Shown: positions 36,422-44,309 of the stretch, in pieces
How the letters are laid out: each line of letters opens with the position of its first letter
Numbering within the stretch: the stretch's first letter is position 1
Source: Labedella phragmitis
GTDB lineage: Bacteria; Actinomycetota; Actinomycetes; Actinomycetales; Microbacteriaceae
Length of the DNA stretch: 60,867 nucleotides
Assembly: GCF_004078635.1 (NCBI RefSeq)
Contig: NZ_RZNB01000009.1
Coordinates: 1-60,867, forward strand
Reading direction: 5' to 3'
Made by a program: the position numbers and the translations under genes
Notes under the pieces: model-generated
The model's input: the letters and a program-made list of their open reading frames with translations, nothing else
Told to the model about the DNA's origin: nothing
Databases searched by the model: none

Positions 36422-36506
36422 GTCGCCGAGCCTGTCGATGCGTTCTCCGTCGCTGAGCTTGTCGAAGCGTTCTCGGAGTGGGGCCCTTCGACGACCTCAG
36501 AGACCG
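36422..36506. repeat. REP-like repeat cluster
   Basis: Two tandem 27-base copies (36422-36448 and 36449-36475) built around GTCGCTGAGCTTGTCGAAGC, followed by an inverted, diverged copy (CTTCGACGACCTCAGAGACC, 36487-36506). The inverted copy overlaps the stop codon of the UvrA-like gene. The copies can pair to form a hairpin. The same core occurs at 47917-47946. Confidence 0.65.
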
Positions 36507-38962
36507 AAGGGATTCCCCCCGAGCTGCACCACGAGATACGGGGCCGTGCGGCTCGCTGTCGACGCCGCGACCTCCGCGGGGGTTCCTGCGGCGACAACCC
36601 GACCGCCCTCGTCGCCGCCCGCCGGACCCATGTCGATGACGTGATCGGCCGCCGCGACGACGCTCATCGCGTGCTCCACGAGGACGACCGTGTTCCCCGC
36701 GTCGACGAGGCGCGACAACTGCTCGACGAGGAGTTCGACGTCCGCGGGGTGGAGTCCCGAGGTCGGTTCGTCGAGCAGGTAGAGCGTGTGACCCGTGCGT
36801 GCACGCTGCAGTTCCGTCGCGAGCTTGATGCGCTGCGCTTCGCCGCCGGAGAGCTGCGGTGCCGGCTGGCCGAGCCGCAGGTAGCCGAGGCCGACCTGCC
36901 GGAGCGTCTCGAGTCCGCGGGAGGCTGCGGGCACGTCGGCGAGGAACTCCGCGGCCTCGTCGACGGTCATCGCGAGCACCTCCGCGATCGTCGCCCCTCG
37001 CCAGAGCACCTCCAGCGTCTCGGGGTTGTAGCGGGAGCCGTGGCACTCGGGGCACGGCGCCCAGCTGCCCGGGAGGAAGAGCAGTTCGACCGAGACGGAG
37101 CCCTCGCCCTGGCACACCTCGCAGCGGCCGCCGGCCACGTTGAACGAGAACCGCCCGGCGGACCAACCGCGAGCGCGCGCCTCGTCGGTCGCGGCGAACG
37201 TCGCGCGCACGGCGTCGAAGAGTCCCGTGTACGTTGCGAGGTTCGAGCGCGGGGTCCGGCCGATCGCCTTCTGGTCCACCTGGACCACGCGGCTGACGAG
37301 CGAGTGCTCCGTCGCGCGCTCGGCGAGCACGCGACCGACGAGCGTCGACTTGCCGGAGCCCGAGACCCCCGTGACCGCCGTGAGGACCCCGAGCGGCACG
37401 TCGACGTCGAGCGCGCGGAGATTGTGGAGCGTCACGTCGCGCAGCTCGAGCCGGTCGACCGGAACACGGGGCGTCGACGGCGGGCCGCTCGGCTCGGCGG
37501 GCCGGAGGAAGCGCCGCGTGATGGACGCGTCGACCTCGGCGAGCCCGTCGACGGGTCCGCTGTAGAGGACGTCGCCGCCGTTCGCACCGGCACCAGGCCC
37601 GACGTCGACGATCCAGTCCGCGTGGCGGACGATGTCCATGTTGTGCTCGACGACGAAGACGCTGTTGCCGCTCGCGCGCAGTCCCTCGAGCACCTCGATG
37701 AGCGGTTCGGCGTCGGCGGGGTGGAGTCCGGCGCTCGGCTCGTCGAGCACGTAGACGACGCCGAAGAGGCCGGAACGGAGCTGCGTCGCGATGCGCAACC
37801 GCTGCATCTCACCCGGCGAGAGCGTGGGGGTCGCGCGGTCGAGGCTCAAGTAGCCGAGGCCGAGACCGGTGAGCACCTCGACCCGCGAGAGCAGATCGCG
37901 CGAGATCGTGACGGCGACCTCCGTCCCCTCCCCCGACGACGCCTTCGAGGTGGCAGTGGCGGCGTGCTCGACGGACGCGATGGGCCGCAGCACGTCCGCG
38001 AGGTCGGTGAGCGGCAGCCGGTTGAGTTCGGCGATCGTGCGCCCGGAGACGGTCACGGCGAGCGCCGCGCGCGTCAGCCCGCTCCCCCCGCACAGCGAGC
38101 ACGGCCCGGACTCGACGAACTGCAGCACCTTCGTGCGCTGCGACTCGCTCTGCGAGTCCGCGAGCGTGTGCATCACGAACTGGCGGGCGCTCCAGAACCG
38201 GCCCTTGTAGGGCTTCGCGACGCGGTCGCGTTGCGGGTGCACCTCGACGACGGGCTGCTCCTCGGTGAAGAGGAGCCAGTCGCGGTCCTCGCGCGACAGC
38301 TCGCGCCACGGCCGATCGATGTCGTACCCGAGCACGGCGGTCACGTCGCGGAGGTTCTTCCCTTGCCACGCTCCCGGCCACGCGGTGATGGCGCCGTCGC
38401 GGATGCTGAGCGAGTCGTCGCGCACCGCGGACGCCTCCGTGACCTCGTGCGCGATCCCGAGCCCGTGGCACCGCGGGCACGCGCCGACCGCGGTGTTGGG
38501 CGAGAACGAGTCGGACTCGAGCCGCTCGGCACCCTCCGGGTACCGGCCGGCGCGCGAGTAGAGCATGCGCACCGAGTTCGACAGCGTCGTGAGCGTGCCG
38601 ACGGTGGAGCGCGAACTCGGCGCCCCGCGCCGCTGCTGCAGCGCGACGGCCGGCGGGAGCCCCGTGATGGAGTCGACGTGCGGGGTGTTCCCCTGCGCGA
38701 TCAGCCGCCGGGCATAGGGAGCGACGGACTCGAGGAACCGCCGCTGCGCCTCCGCGAAGATCGTCCCGAACGCGAGCGACGTCTTCCCCGACCCCGACAC
38801 CCCGGTGAACGCGACGATGCTGTCGCGCGGCACGTCGACGTCCACGTCGCGCAGGTTGTTCTCCCGCGCACCCCGCACGCGGATGAACCCGTCGCGGGTC
38901 GCGCCGTCGGCGCCTGCCGCTTCGAGGGCGAAGGAGGGCACGGGTGTTCCGGCGGAGGACAT
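36497..38962 (-). CDS. class II UvrA-like ABC protein
   Basis: 821 residues, shorter than housekeeping UvrA (about 950). Two ABC modules: Walker A GVSGSGKTSL at about 54-63 and GVSGSGKSTL at about 505-514, signatures LSPGEMQRLRIATQL and LSGGEAQRIKLATEL. Zinc-binding Cys clusters CPRCHG, CSLCGG, CEVCQGEG and CPECHG are present. The size and the compact region between the first Walker A and its signature indicate that the UvrB-binding domain is missing or reduced, as in UvrA2 proteins linked to resistance against DNA-binding drugs. No uvrB or uvrC nearby. Probably leaderless. Confidence 0.9.
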   Translation of the reverse strand: MSSAGTPVPSFALEAAGADGATRDGFIRVRGARENNLRDVDVDVPRDSIVAFTGVSGSGKTSLAFGTIFAEAQRRFLESVAPYARRLIAQGNTPHVDSITGLPPAVALQQRRGAPSSRSTVGTLTTLSNSVRMLYSRAGRYPEGAERLESDSFSPNTAVGACPRCHGLGIAHEVTEASAVRDDSLSIRDGAITAWPGAWQGKNLRDVTAVLGYDIDRPWRELSREDRDWLLFTEEQPVVEVHPQRDRVAKPYKGRFWSARQFVMHTLADSQSESQRTKVLQFVESGPCSLCGGSGLTRAALAVTVSGRTIAELNRLPLTDLADVLRPIASVEHAATATSKASSGEGTEVAVTISRDLLSRVEVLTGLGLGYLSLDRATPTLSPGEMQRLRIATQLRSGLFGVVYVLDEPSAGLHPADAEPLIEVLEGLRASGNSVFVVEHNMDIVRHADWIVDVGPGAGANGGDVLYSGPVDGLAEVDASITRRFLRPAEPSGPPSTPRVPVDRLELRDVTLHNLRALDVDVPLGVLTAVTGVSGSGKSTLVGRVLAERATEHSLVSRVVQVDQKAIGRTPRSNLATYTGLFDAVRATFAATDEARARGWSAGRFSFNVAGGRCEVCQGEGSVSVELLFLPGSWAPCPECHGSRYNPETLEVLWRGATIAEVLAMTVDEAAEFLADVPAASRGLETLRQVGLGYLRLGQPAPQLSGGEAQRIKLATELQRARTGHTLYLLDEPTSGLHPADVELLVEQLSRLVDAGNTVVLVEHAMSVVAAADHVIDMGPAGGDEGGRVVAAGTPAEVAASTASRTAPYLVVQLGGNPFGL

Positions 38963-38975: not shown

Positions 38976-39096
38976 GTCCGGATTAGATGACAGCAAAGAT
39001 GTCGCAGTCCGGCGCGTCCGCAAACAGCGCATAGCTGACCTTTGCGCTTCGCTTAACGCGATTAAGGCTTAGAAATGTGCGGGTGCCTGACCGGTC

Positions 39097-40419
39097 TTAC
39101 AAATCTTCCTTTGCTTGTCCATTCTGATCGCTCACGTCGATTAGCTGGTGAGCGCGCCGCACACGCTTCTCCTCGTCATCCAACAGATCGATCTCGTCAC
39201 TATCGGCGGCCCCGAGGAAGGCCCGGATGGCTTGCCCGTGTAACCGCGTGAATCTTGGGGGCACAGCTTCCCCGATCATCTCGCGTACACGGGTGTGACC
39301 CCATCGTTCAAGTGCGTCCCCCCAGCGGAAATCAGCGGGAAGCGTTTGCAGATATGCGCATTCATAGGGGCTGAGCAGGCGGTTTTCCCAAGGGTGAATA
39401 GTCTTATCGCTGCCAACGCGACCACTCGCAGTAGTGATGGTCGCTGCCGGCATGTCAGCTCGCATGCGGCTGTAGCTACTGTTACGGAAACCTTTGATGA
39501 GACGCCAGCCGTTTCCGTCTCGGACAACCGGCCGGAGCAAAGGAGTATCACAACGAGCGCACAGCGCTGCGTCCCGGTCGTGGGAGGTAGCCCCGCACCG
39601 AGGACAAACATCATTCTCCCAAGCCCCTTTGCCCGAATTGGGCGCAATGGCCTCAACCATCATGTATCGCTGCTCCGTCCATACTGGGACAAAGTGCATG
39701 GGATTGCCCGGGTCCGATGCTGCACCAGGGTCGCGAGCGTCAAGTACTGAAGCACCGAGCTGCCCAAGTGCCTCGGTGATTGACACCCGAGGACGAGCGC
39801 CGCCATGGGTTGGCGCGGGGAACGGCGTAGAACCCGGGCGCTCTGCTTTCTCATTTCGACGTATCAAAGTGAGGAAGGCACGCTTCCGGGTTTGAGGGAC
39901 TCCCCAATCAGCGAGATCAGCGACCATCGCAAAAACCTTGTACTCGTCTCGCAGCGCCTCAATGAGTAGGCGAGCAGCGCTAATCGGTGTTCCATCGAGG
40001 GGATTAGGGACTTGACGCGTCAGGAAAGCGGGCACATTTTCGACAACGATAGCGCGCGGTCGAAGCTCCCGTGCAACCGATTCGATCACTGTCACAAGCA
40101 GGTTTCGCGGATCCCTGCCGCCCGCCTCGAGGTCTTTATGGCTACCAAGACCGCTTCGAGCGCTGCTCATGCCCTGACATGGCGGACACGCGGCCAATAA
40201 ATCCGGCCGTTCTGAACCCTCAAGCGATCTCCAGGCGGCGACGGCGTCCGGCCAGGTCTTCCGCAAGTCGCCAGGGATTCCGGTGGCTGCAGGATGGTTC
40301 GCAAGCGCAACGGCCAACCGATCAGGGTCCAGCTCAGCCATCACCCGGAAATCAAAACCGGCCTGGGAGTATCCAATGTCGCCAGCACCGCAGTTGGAAA
40401 ACAAACTGATGGCCTTCAC
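39097..40419 (-). CDS. C5-cytosine DNA methyltransferase with zinc-ribbon insertion
   Basis: 440 residues from the GTG at 40419, preceded by GAGGAG. Motif I ISLFSNCGAGDIGYSQAGF, motif IV CPPCQG with catalytic Cys81, motif VI ENV at 127-129, motif VIII QTRKR at 176-180. The target-recognition region contains a CPRC/CARC pair (Cys272, 275, 287, 290) that looks like a zinc ribbon. The C-terminal SPYECAYLQTLP segment is motif X-like. It should methylate cytosine in a specific site and protect host DNA from the nuclease encoded upstream. Base composition is clearly lower in GC than the flanking genes, a sign of transfer. Confidence 0.9.
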   Translation of the reverse strand: MKAISLFSNCGAGDIGYSQAGFDFRVMAELDPDRLAVALANHPAATGIPGDLRKTWPDAVAAWRSLEGSERPDLLAACPPCQGMSSARSGLGSHKDLEAGGRDPRNLLVTVIESVARELRPRAIVVENVPAFLTRQVPNPLDGTPISAARLLIEALRDEYKVFAMVADLADWGVPQTRKRAFLTLIRRNEKAERPGSTPFPAPTHGGARPRVSITEALGQLGASVLDARDPGAASDPGNPMHFVPVWTEQRYMMVEAIAPNSGKGAWENDVCPRCGATSHDRDAALCARCDTPLLRPVVRDGNGWRLIKGFRNSSYSRMRADMPAATITTASGRVGSDKTIHPWENRLLSPYECAYLQTLPADFRWGDALERWGHTRVREMIGEAVPPRFTRLHGQAIRAFLGAADSDEIDLLDDEEKRVRRAHQLIDVSDQNGQAKEDL

Positions 40420-40446
40420 AGCTCTCCTCGACGCGTTCTCGAAACC

Positions 40447-40638
40447 TTACAAATCGGTTGGGAGCGACCATCCCTCGAGGCCGTCACCGCGATCCGCAAC
40501 TGTTCTGATGATGAGGCTGTCGGTCTTGAGGCATGGTTTCAGATTATCCCGAGCCTCCGACGGAGACGGCTCATGCGGGTCGACCGTCGAGCAACTCTCA
40601 AACCACAGCCTCTCGGAAGACGAGACGCAAATCGGCAC
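40447..40638 (-). other. gap between the two island genes, no convincing gene
   Basis: The 294 bases at 40420-40713 hold a 63-codon minus-strand reading with no ribosome site and no recognisable feature. The gap may contain a separate promoter for the methyltransferase, which would let it be expressed before the nuclease. I see no clear -10 box. Confidence 0.3.
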
Positions 40639-40713
40639 CAGTTCCGCTCGAGATCATCACAAACCGCGCCCACCCACGGCTTGGACGAACCGGGACGCAG
40701 CTAGAAAGCGGCG

Positions 40714-42789
40714 TCATGATGAGGAGATTTGCGAGTTCTCAGTGTTCACCACTTTTCTCGCCTCGTCATGGGCATCCAAGAACTGTTCGTGCGCGACTAC
40801 GGCAGCCCCCAAGAAGTCGCTCCACGTTCGTCGTACAACCTGACCACTGGTAGCAGCGGAGCCGAAGGCTCGACGCTTAGTCGTGTCACGAATATTGATC
40901 CCGTCGGCGATCAGATCGATCACCCATCCGTCGGGAAAGTTAGCGCCTAGAGCTTTATGCTCCTCGAAGAACTGCTCGAAGGCCTCCAAGTAGTTCTCGA
41001 GACGACCGTAGTCGGCATCACCAAAGTCATGCCCGGGCTTCTTCAGCTCCACAACGTGAAGCTGTCGACCGAGGTGAACGAGAGTGAAGTCGGGCCGCTT
41101 GCGCTCATAGCTGATGGCGATGTCGATCTCCTCGCCGTAGTGCTGCTTCCAGAATGCGGCGAACCTGTCACGGAAAGTCTTCAATGCCTGGTTCTCGCTT
41201 ATTACCGACCAGTCGGGCCGGATCAACCACGGAGCACCCGAGATCAGCTGTTGCAAGTCGGCCTCCACGACATCGTCCTTCGCGAGCACCTGCTTCAACT
41301 CTTCAACGGCATCAACGCGCTCGGAAGCGATTTGCGCGTAGCTTGCTAACTCGGCGGTCCTCGTGTGAGTGAAGAGCGGGATCAGTTGCTCTACGGTCTT
41401 ATCCTCGAGTCTTGCAATCGCTTGGAACGAGCGAATAAGGGCCTGGTGAGGCCCGACCAAGAGGACGATGTCAGTGAGGTCGTCGATGTAATCCTGATCT
41501 TCCAGTTCGTCCTCGTGAGCAAGGCCTCCCAACTTAGAGCCGAACTCCAAGACCGCAGAAATTACGGCGGGGTTCTCGCCGTATCTCTCCCGGGCTCGCT
41601 TCTCCAAGGCTGAGTTGCGCAGGAAGATCTTGGTCTTACCTTCCCGCCTCGGGCCCGCCGACGCCTTCGCGATTTCTTTAACTAAGGCGGCACCCCAAGC
41701 CCGAAGCGCCTCACCGTACTCGGAATCCCATAGGATCCCCTGTCGGTCCGTCCGGACAAGGTCCTCGGTATCGTCTTCGTCCAACCACTCCGCGTGTATC
41801 TCGCCCACGAGATAGGACCGCATTGTGAACTCACCTGTGAAGCCCGCGGGCTGCTCGAAATCCCGTGTCGTCGCTACGATCTTCCCCCGGGCGTAGATTC
41901 GAACTCCCGCCTCTTCTTCGTCGCGAATCGCTTGCTTCCCGAAGGCCAACCAACCCGTAACAGGCAACGCCATGTCGTCGTACGGGACTGGGCGGTTGGC
42001 CACGTCAATCCTGGTGCCCTCGTTTACCTCGACCTGAAACTTCGCAATGTCAAACTCGGCGTCGCTGCCCGCATCGTCGCCCGCCCGCAAGTCCACGACG
42101 TGGATCGTGAAGTCGGTTCGGGCAAGCGCGAACCGACGCGAGACCTGGCGTCCAAAAATCTCGCGGTTCGGAACCCGCTTCGGGAGGAAATCACTTAGGA
42201 CCACGGTGGTACCGCTTTTCGCGTCCCAGGTTTGATCATCCGAACCAGCAGAAACCGGCACGTCACCATCCTCGTCCCGAACGATGGTGTCGAAGTCAAG
42301 AATGAAGTGACTGACTCTGTATCCGTTATCCGTCAGGGGTCCGCCAGCCGAGCGCACTTCAATGCGCTTACAGATACCAAAGGGCGCGAGCTTGCCGATC
42401 CCCTTCCGCCCCATGACTGGTCGTTGCTTCTTCCGAGATCGACTGCCGGCGACCGCCCGTGTGCGGCGATCCGACCCCACGGACAGAAAGTAGCGCTGAG
42501 CTTCGGACGGATCCATCCCATGACCGTCATCACTCACCGTGAGCGTCCATCCCCCGTCGATGACCTCGCCGCCCTCATCCTTTGTGGCCAAGGCGGTCCC
42601 GAGAGGGAGCGTTACCGTCACCTTCTCTGCATCAGCGTCGTAGGAGTTCGCGATCAGTTCGGCAACGACTGCGCTCGCCCGGTCGTAGAGCTTTACGCCG
42701 AGCTTGTCGATCGTCAGCCGCGATAAGCGCATCCGATACGGCGCCCGGACAAGATCGTCGTCGACTGGGGCTTCGTTGAGCTCGATCAC
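40714..42789 (-). CDS. GHKL (MORC/MutL-like) ATPase fused to a PD-(D/E)xK nuclease
   Basis: 691 residues from the GTG at 42789. The N-terminal GHKL ATPase shows the N box VAELIANSYDADA (Glu44, Asn48), the G1 motif TVSDDGHGMD (about 85-92) and the G2 motif GRKGIGKLAPFG (127-138). The middle of the protein (about 230-480) is a transducer-like and helical region. The C-terminal part has GAPWLIRPDWSVISENQAL and RPDFTLVHLGRQLHVVELKK, in which Asp567, Glu581 and Lys583 form a PD-(D/E)xK site similar to DUF4263/Shedu nucleases. Together with the methyltransferase this reads as an ATP-dependent restriction enzyme. Lower GC than neighbours. Probably leaderless. Confidence 0.88.
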   Translation of the reverse strand: MIELNEAPVDDDLVRAPYRMRLSRLTIDKLGVKLYDRASAVVAELIANSYDADAEKVTVTLPLGTALATKDEGGEVIDGGWTLTVSDDGHGMDPSEAQRYFLSVGSDRRTRAVAGSRSRKKQRPVMGRKGIGKLAPFGICKRIEVRSAGGPLTDNGYRVSHFILDFDTIVRDEDGDVPVSAGSDDQTWDAKSGTTVVLSDFLPKRVPNREIFGRQVSRRFALARTDFTIHVVDLRAGDDAGSDAEFDIAKFQVEVNEGTRIDVANRPVPYDDMALPVTGWLAFGKQAIRDEEEAGVRIYARGKIVATTRDFEQPAGFTGEFTMRSYLVGEIHAEWLDEDDTEDLVRTDRQGILWDSEYGEALRAWGAALVKEIAKASAGPRREGKTKIFLRNSALEKRARERYGENPAVISAVLEFGSKLGGLAHEDELEDQDYIDDLTDIVLLVGPHQALIRSFQAIARLEDKTVEQLIPLFTHTRTAELASYAQIASERVDAVEELKQVLAKDDVVEADLQQLISGAPWLIRPDWSVISENQALKTFRDRFAAFWKQHYGEEIDIAISYERKRPDFTLVHLGRQLHVVELKKPGHDFGDADYGRLENYLEAFEQFFEEHKALGANFPDGWVIDLIADGINIRDTTKRRAFGSAATSGQVVRRTWSDFLGAAVVAHEQFLDAHDEARKVVNTENSQISSS

Positions 42790-42795
42790 AAGCGC

Positions 42796-42801
42796 ATCCT
42801 A
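42796..42801 (-). promoter_or_regulatory. -10 box of the GHKL-nuclease gene, leaderless
   Basis: TAGGAT on the minus strand, six bases before the GTG at 42789, with no ribosome site between. Confidence 0.55.
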
Positions 42802-42909
42802 TGGCATCTGCGGGAATCGCAAGAGCTGCCGAAACGCTCAAACAAGCACGATCAGCATGCGGGCGTACGGCAGGTATCTCGCCTTGTCCGGCGAACCACT
42901 TGCCAACCC

Positions 42910-42968: not shown

Positions 42969-44309
42969 ATGACACCATCAACCCCCATTTCGCGACGGCA
43001 GATGCTCGCGGGAACGGCGGCGGCCCTCGCGGGAACGGCCTTCCTCGCTGGATGTGCCCCGACCGGGCCGGGCTCCCCGGGAGCGCAGACCCTGCAGTTC
43101 TGGCATCTGCTTTCGGGCGGTGACGGCGTGACGATGTCGGGTCTCCTCGACACCGCCAACGCGGCGCAGAGCGCGTATCGCGTGCGACCGACCGTCCTCT
43201 CGTGGGGCACGCCGTACTACACGAAGCTCGCGATGGCGGCGGCGGGCGGCCGTGCGCCGGACGTCGCGATCATGCACGCGACGCGCGTCGCCGGCTACGC
43301 ACCGGGCGGTCTCCTCGACCCCTGGGACGTCGACAAGCTCGCGTCGCTCGGCGTCGACGAGTCGACGTTCCCCGCTCCCATCTGGGAGAAGGGACACGCG
43401 GGCGGCGACCTCTACAGCGTCGCGCTCGACGCCCACCCCTTCGTCCTGATGTACAACACGGACATCTGCGACGCCGCGGGTGTGCTCGACAGCGACGGGA
43501 ATCTCACCCCGGCGACGAGCCCCGAGGAGTTCCTCGAGCTCTCCCGGGCGGTCGCGGCCGAGTCGACCGGCCACGGCCTGTCCTTCGGCTACCTCGGCGA
43601 CGGCGCCCAGATGTGGCGCCTCTTCTACACGCTCTACACGCAGCACGGCCTCACGATGGAGACGCCGGAGGGCGGCAAGAGCGAACTCGACGACGACGCG
43701 GCCATCGAGTCGCTCACCTACATGCAGACGCTCCTCGACGGGGAGATCGCCGCGGCGCAAGCCGACTACGGCACAGCCGTCGCCGAGTTCGCCACCGGGA
43801 ACAGCGGCATGCTCTTCACGGGCGTGTGGGAGCTCCGCACGATGCAGGCCGCCGAGCTGCCCTTCAACGCGAGCCGCATCCCCACCCTCTACGGGACCGA
43901 CGCGGTCTACGCGGACTCGCACTCCTTCGTCCTCCCCCACCAGACGAGCCCGGACGAGGGGAAGCGCGAACTCACCTACCAGTTCGTCGCCGACCTGCTG
44001 AAGGGCTCGTTCGACTGGGCGGAGGCGGGCCATATTCCGGCCTACCTGCCCGTCACGGAGTCGCCGGACTACGCGGACCTCGTGCCGCAGGCCAACTATG
44101 CCGACGCCGCCCAGTACGTGCAGTACGACCCGCCGGCGTGGTTCACGGGCTCCGGCTCGAACTTCCAGAGCGAATTCGGCGCCGCCGTGCAGGGAGTGCC
44201 CCTCAACGGAAACGACCCCGCCGCCGCGATCACCGACTTCCGACGCCGCGTCGACGGTCTGCTCGCCAAACCCAACCCGGCAGACCCCGAAGGGACGTTC
44301 GGATCGTGA
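42969..44309 (+). CDS. ABC sugar importer, solute-binding lipoprotein (family 1)
   Basis: 446 residues. ATG with GGGAG four to five bases upstream. N-terminus SRRQMLAGTAAALAGTAFLAG then Cys: lipobox with a twin arginine, so Tat export is possible. The mature part opens LQFWHLLSGGDGVTMSGLLD and has AAAGGRAPDVAIMH at about 90. The downstream GH51 enzyme points to an arabinose-containing oligosaccharide as ligand. First gene of a four-gene operon. Confidence 0.92.
   Translation: MTPSTPISRRQMLAGTAAALAGTAFLAGCAPTGPGSPGAQTLQFWHLLSGGDGVTMSGLLDTANAAQSAYRVRPTVLSWGTPYYTKLAMAAAGGRAPDVAIMHATRVAGYAPGGLLDPWDVDKLASLGVDESTFPAPIWEKGHAGGDLYSVALDAHPFVLMYNTDICDAAGVLDSDGNLTPATSPEEFLELSRAVAAESTGHGLSFGYLGDGAQMWRLFYTLYTQHGLTMETPEGGKSELDDDAAIESLTYMQTLLDGEIAAAQADYGTAVAEFATGNSGMLFTGVWELRTMQAAELPFNASRIPTLYGTDAVYADSHSFVLPHQTSPDEGKRELTYQFVADLLKGSFDWAEAGHIPAYLPVTESPDYADLVPQANYADAAQYVQYDPPAWFTGSGSNFQSEFGAAVQGVPLNGNDPAAAITDFRRRVDGLLAKPNPADPEGTFGS

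Follow-up and report, generated by a model that had tools for sequence, protein, structure and literature searches.

The 60,867-nucleotide stretch of Labedella phragmitis DNA analysed here (the window) carries an apparently intact restriction-modification (R-M) island of two genes, one coding for a GHKL ATPase joined to a PD-(D/E)xK nuclease and the other for a C5-cytosine DNA methyltransferase (C5 methylase), and this island belongs to a known kind, as a diverged branch in which the partners have been recombined, and is not a new type. On the minus strand the nuclease gene (42789-40714, 691 codons) is followed by the methylase gene (40419-39097, 440 codons), with each opening on a GTG start codon behind a Shine-Dalgarno sequence (purine-rich AGGA upstream of the nuclease, GAGGAG upstream of the methylase). 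Together they probably form a horizontally acquired Type II-like R-M system, in which a dimer of the GHKL protein would use ATP to gate the cleavage of unmethylated DNA. The original prediction for this locus is confirmed overall as an observation, its coordinates and named residues being correct: it had described a GHKL ATPase and a PD-(D/E)xK nuclease in a single polypeptide (borne out by Pfam, motifs, AlphaFold2, and Foldseek), a complete C5 methylase partner (PF00145, E = 4.8e-32), no helicase at the locus, an island low in guanine and cytosine (GC), and a role in restriction, the last supported by a restriction-family match (NF050001) and by recurrent pairing with methylases.

The nuclease and its family

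The GHKL motifs of the nuclease are intact, with the N box at E44/N48, G1 around D87, G89, and G91, and G2 around G127-G132. In a conservation alignment of 30 rows (the window and 29 relatives), E44, N48, D87, G89, K129, G130, G132, R349, D567, E581, and Y600 are present in every row, with weaker conservation of G91 (29/30) and R128 (25/30), and with K583 and E509 of the nuclease site retained in 28 and 27 rows respectively; G127 is invariant in a separate conservation check. A Pfam scan recovers HATPase_c_3 (2.4e-16), nuclease matches being sub-threshold only. The full-length AlphaFold2 model built on the 30-row alignment (predicted local distance difference test, pLDDT, 85.1; predicted template modelling score 0.62) matches TRAP1/Hsp90, MORC2 (9.1e-12), and MORC3 (6.8e-11) in Foldseek, in alignments of ~450 columns. 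Modelled alone, the C-terminal 191 residues reach a pLDDT of 91.2, with NucS, N.BspD6I, MspJI, Shedu, and FokI as the best PDB matches in Foldseek (none under an E-value of 1e-3; best 2.1e-3, probability 1.00), and a sequence profile of the nuclease domain finds NucS (4.3e-5) and EndoMS (2.6e-4). Fold, motif, and profile combined establish the modelled C-terminal domain as a PD-(D/E)xK nuclease, the predicted structure agreeing with the fold first proposed.

The NCBIfam model NF050001, which covers the BbrUII/HgiDII restriction enzymes, matches residues 18-679 of the nuclease at positions 1-650 of 659 (E = 7.3e-71), and PADLOC assigns the protein to REase_II (4.3e-30). This is a full-length domain match whose 239.6 bits lie below the cut-off of 550 for strict membership, with three strict members scoring 751-771 in a scan of eight proteins. 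Because it scores 240 bits against a cut-off of 550, the window nuclease is placed by its sequence beside the BbrUII/HgiDII (paraMORC3-type) enzymes, as a sister branch and not as a strict member. An end-to-end alignment of the nuclease, an adjacent C5 methylase, and the lack of a helicase are shared with that family, whereas the window methylase belongs to a zinc-ribbon class and, in a tree that does not include M.HgiDII, lies apart from the branch containing the methylases of the strict members L061 and L067. A 2018 paper cites both M.HgiDII and M.BbrUII as 5-methylcytosine methylases, the former with GTCGAC as its target (PMC5867850).

As described by Iyer, Abhiman and Aravind (2008; PMC2292703), paraMORC3 combines GHKL and S5 domains with a C-terminal nuclease of restriction endonuclease (RE) fold bearing E-D-ExK and is tied to restriction systems, and a minority of MORC gene neighbourhoods are free of helicases and hold methylases or nucleases. 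The window protein has the same domain order, with GHKL, S5-like, and C-terminal RE-fold domains and E-D-ExK, a likeness drawn to the published description, the original members being outside the alignment; the window locus differs in having no helicase. A phage protein annotated as ParaMORC3, 24% identical to the window protein (2e-24), adjoins a Dcm gene. The MORC ATPases share the ATPase-S5 fold with the window protein and differ from it in the fused nuclease. VcSduA, a GHKL-nuclease fusion, is described in PMC12137116 as a single-protein system that stops phages and needs both active sites; it and Shedu share with the window protein the order of GHKL and PD-(D/E)xK domains and a related nuclease fold, but VcSduA is a single-protein system and the match of the window protein to the Shedu domain falls under the cut-off.

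With methylase and nuclease genes adjacent and no translocating helicase, the locus has the arrangement of a Type II R-M system. The proposal of an unusual architecture, a minimal new type, fails because paraMORC3 (2008), VcSduA, and a named restriction family, NF050001, that covers the protein end to end all precede it, and categorical novelty of the two-gene GHKL nuclease/methylase system is likewise rejected on NF050001, paraMORC3, the phage pair, and the recurrent loci. The closest full-length relatives found are L033, from the same phylum (43% identity), three copies in a metagenome-assembled genome (MAG) labelled Cenarchaeum (41-42%), and a Haloarculaceae protein (39%). Full-text literature searches returned no paper on zinc-ribbon methylases in restriction systems and none on GHKL/HATPase restriction endonuclease-methyltransferase systems in phage defence or restriction-modification; nor did any paper on an exchange of partners among these enzymes turn up, in searches not aimed at that phrase and with subscription papers mostly outside them.

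Exchange of methylase partners

In a nuclease tree of 58 rows the window falls in clade A (11 rows, support 100/100), separate from clade B (12 rows, 100/100), and a methylase tree of 51 rows groups it with the zinc-ribbon methylases, class beta (9 rows, 100/100), the alpha methylases forming a class of their own (10 rows, 100/100). Between clades A and B the nucleases diverge most in the long helical region, with residues 386-500 only 11-18% identical. Clade A nucleases are partnered by alpha methylases in seven cases, by beta in one (the window), by another class in one (L004), and by none found in two (L002 and L003), with clade B partnered by alpha in three, by beta in eight, and by none found in one (L180); these rows are not independent events, a number of the B+beta ones being closely related. 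Since clade A occurs mostly with alpha and clade B with beta or alpha, and the window joins A to beta, nucleases and methylases have exchanged partners, and the window pair probably arose by such an exchange. It is the only A+beta pair collected, and no other was found in a sample of 396 genomes of the same order, where a methylase search at 1e-40 matched its own genome only; a nuclease search of the same genomes at 1e-30 gave its own genome and one partial match (residues 24-385).

The window methylase is assigned to class beta because of the tree and a cysteine-bearing insertion, plain identity separating the classes weakly (31-37% to beta, 29-33% to alpha). This insertion sits in the target-recognition region, with cysteines 272, 275, 287, and 290 invariant in 8/8 aligned rows and the CxxC spacing motif present in 10 of the 58 methylases collected. 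In a wider methylase tree made by a quick method, the window and the beta class group with five methylases that lie near a small enzyme (Shimodaira-Hasegawa-like approximate likelihood ratio test, 100), and the window methylase has no supported position inside this group. All four cysteines of the window are kept in one of these five cousins; in each of the remaining four the first is shifted and the other three are in place.

The small enzymes beside the five cousins are 221-272 residues long and all match PADLOC PDLC03564. Gene and methylase are convergent at every one of these loci except L317, where they are divergent and a second methylase, outside the set, lies in between. Small Type II enzymes are located at L075:4250-4915, L245:5286-6062, L249:2197-2970, and L317:1234-2713, the last with two side by side. 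Their identity goes no further than REase_II in PADLOC, with nothing over the cut-off in Pfam (one sub-cut-off match, DUF4726), no NCBIfam match for the enzymes scanned, and no name better than 'endonuclease' among PDB sequences, phages, and plasmids. Judged from the trees, one methylase lineage thus occurs with clade B, with clade A (in the window only), and with an ATPase-less small enzyme. Because methylase cousins adjoin a small Type II enzyme, the GHKL nuclease occupies the restriction-enzyme slot.

A variant of the ATP-gated reading holds that the nuclease does not read sequence itself but is guided by the methylase or forms a complex with it, and that the target-recognition region of the methylase sets the site, which would make partners exchangeable. 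This would fit the alpha methylases of A-linked and B-linked loci, which are 47-55% identical to one another and serve nucleases only 23-26% identical. It would also fit a comparison of clades and classes that found no specificity module in the nuclease, with one class-tracking column against two in the reverse control. However, that comparison holds a single A+beta sequence and so has little power, and the cousin methylases adjoin a small enzyme of conventional type, for which a site reading of its own can be presumed. The window nuclease domain stands a little closer to B-beta than to B-alpha, possibly a trace of common specificity, but L004, whose methylase is of another class, is closer still. 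On balance a methylase-directed nuclease is quite unlikely.

The island and its chromosomal site

The features of the locus are collected in Table 1. The GC content of the island is 59.2%, against a mean of 69.8% (standard deviation 1.3, lowest 67.2) in 246 overlapping segments of the same size outside it. In blastn comparisons with three congeners, similarity of the left-hand DNA stops at 38977, 38979, and 38891, and that of the right-hand DNA resumes at 42899, 42894, and 42896, with identities beside the island of 86%, 85%, and 85% on the left and 91%, 88%, and 87% on the right. From the positions of the flanking genes, the same interval holds other DNA of ~2.8, 8.5, and 6.6 kb in these congeners. 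As congener similarity ends at or near the island edges and the congener intervals hold other DNA, the island was acquired at a chromosomal site that varies, without being cleanly inserted into empty DNA; no clean empty site exists among the three congeners because all of them carry other DNA there. The flanks, a uvrA-like gene and a sugar ABC operon (36497-38962 and 42969-44309), bound a site of variable cargo, with different DNA between them in each of the three congeners (loci L231, L232, and L233) and the R-M island here.

Table 1. Coordinates of the island, its two genes, and their predicted domains.
Feature	Position	Strand	Basis
Low-GC acquired island	38978..42893		blastn against congeners; GC
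C5-cytosine DNA methyltransferase, 440 residues	39097..40419	-	PF00145, 4.8e-32
Zinc-ribbon-like insertion, residues 272-290, two CxxC pairs	39550..39606	-	alignment
Intergenic stretch, 294 bp	40420..40713		six-frame translation and tblastn
GHKL-ATPase/PD-(D/E)xK restriction endonuclease, 691 residues	40714..42789	-	open reading frame, NF050001, PADLOC, AlphaFold2
PD-(D/E)xK nuclease domain, residues 508-668 (E509, D567, E581, K583)	40786..41268	-	domain model, Foldseek, profile, conservation
Long helical region, residues 357-503	41281..41721	-	AlphaFold2 model
S5/transducer-like domain, residues 201-355, including R349	41725..42189	-	model secondary structure, Foldseek, conservation
GHKL ATPase domain, residues 18-200	42190..42738	-	HATPase_c_3, conservation, Foldseek

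Only short or weak, chance-like pairs of direct repeats were found at the island ends, and a promoter scan found none, with one terminator-like site scoring under the shuffle mean. The intergenic stretch holds no recognisable remnant gene by six-frame translation, or by tblastn using all nucleases and methylases gathered for this analysis (best E = 0.014), and the idea that it contains the remnant of an older methylase was rejected, none being recognised. A gap of this length without a recognisable gene, together with the atypical composition, would suit an island that is decaying and no longer functional, but both frames are open, the catalytic motifs are intact, and the Shine-Dalgarno sequences are good, making decay highly improbable.

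Mode of action and target site

ATP binding closes the GHKL dimer in MORC, MutL, and Hsp90, and such GHKL ATPases act as clamps on DNA or protein; to our knowledge, little has been established about ATP control of a fused nuclease. By analogy with these proteins, the window nuclease would dimerise through its GHKL domains on binding ATP, and the closed dimer would clamp DNA, allowing the C-terminal PD-(D/E)xK domains to cut target sites left unmethylated by the methylase, which is predicted to place 5-methylcytosine in a short target sequence. The system would presumably also be sequence-specific and act against phages.

Pairing with a methylase is recurrent. A scan of viral contigs with a six-sequence nuclease profile gave 64 loci, with a C5 methylase match within the fetched stretch in 54. 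For the pairing count, 69 loci were taken (53 of the 64 viral loci, 15 others, and the window), and a pair was defined as a nuclease of at least 500 residues and a C5 methylase of at least 280 residues less than 3 kb apart. By this definition 57 of the 69 are paired (44/53 on viral contigs, 12/15 of the others, and the window), the figures counting loci, near-copies included, and not independent events, with the viral share reflecting where the search was made.

An alternative is a Shedu-like guard, in which the ATP-gated nuclease would detect some feature of the phage, DNA ends for example, and the methylase would be incidental or an antidote. The domain order is shared by VcSduA, described as a single-protein system (PMC12137116; PMC12409362), and the window nuclease domain touches Shedu in profile (0.08) and in Foldseek (8ps5, 1.5e-2), with PADLOC SduA weakly matching the relative L066 (1.1e-3) and no methylase recognised in the stretches fetched for L002 and L003. 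However, the Shedu domain SduA_C (PF14082) scores 13.2 bits in the window nuclease against a gathering score of 27, so that the Shedu membership raised in the original prediction fails although the fold is related, and it is also under the cut-off in the two relatives showing it (17.9 and 23.5). Pairing with a C5 methylase in 57/69 loci and the whole-length match to a restriction family further argue against such a guard, which is unlikely.

Several observations weigh against the ATP-gated R-M system itself, beginning with the score below the NF050001 cut-off given above. Twelve of the 69 loci are without a recognised pair, including L002, L003, L064, and cut-off or broken genes, and a further nuclease without a methylase, L070, lies outside the count. 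The Cenarchaeum-labelled MAG (L002:5923-10479 and L003:6004-7992) holds three clade-A-like GHKL nucleases of 68-77% mutual identity, two of them in tandem, and no C5 methylase was recognised within ~6 kb on each side of any of the three. Given these MAG relatives and the unpaired loci, nucleases of this kind may act alone. Additionally, GTCGAC is not avoided, with an observed/expected ratio of 0.98 in the own genome against 0.91, 0.89, and 0.94 in the congeners G001, G002, and G003. The counts covered palindromes only (64 hexamers and 16 tetramers) and took in 400 kb from both the own genome and G001, and 200 kb from both G002 and G003. GTCGAC was therefore rejected as a target by site avoidance, there being no depletion, though such counts do not decide whether GTCGAC itself is recognised. 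Among sites with at least 20 expected occurrences, CAGCTG is lowest relative to the congeners (0.78 against 0.89, 0.99, and 1.14), a difference too weak to use.

Transposase genes flank the tandem nuclease pair of the Cenarchaeum-labelled MAG. In the P2-like phage PhiR44_1 (L061, 6028-9178), a ParaMORC3 and Dcm pair lies between portal and replication genes. The GHKL nuclease and methylase of the Deinococcus plasmid p96k (L063) adjoin a Vsr gene and DISARM genes, and those of a Haloplanus plasmid (L062) lie near a cyclase/Pycsar effector gene pair.

A broader proposal, itself distinctly unlikely, is that restriction nucleases of the GHKL type can replace one another as ATP-gated cutters, the places open to cutting being decided by the methylase partner, or by contact with the methylase, and not by a reading head in the nuclease. 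If true, two GHKL clades only ~24% identical could both work with one methylase lineage, while a second lineage could work with either a GHKL clade or a small enzyme unrelated to it, and the window would be a natural hybrid showing interchangeable cutters. The window methylase is the sole PF00145 match found in a search of its own genome, and with one detectable C5 methylase the host methylome could give the site directly. Furthermore, all four combinations of nuclease clade and methylase class exist, with the window filling the rarest in the collection, so that which half of the system reads the target sequence is testable by gene swaps. The value of the island lies in supplying one cell of a swap experiment made by nature, and not in being a new type.

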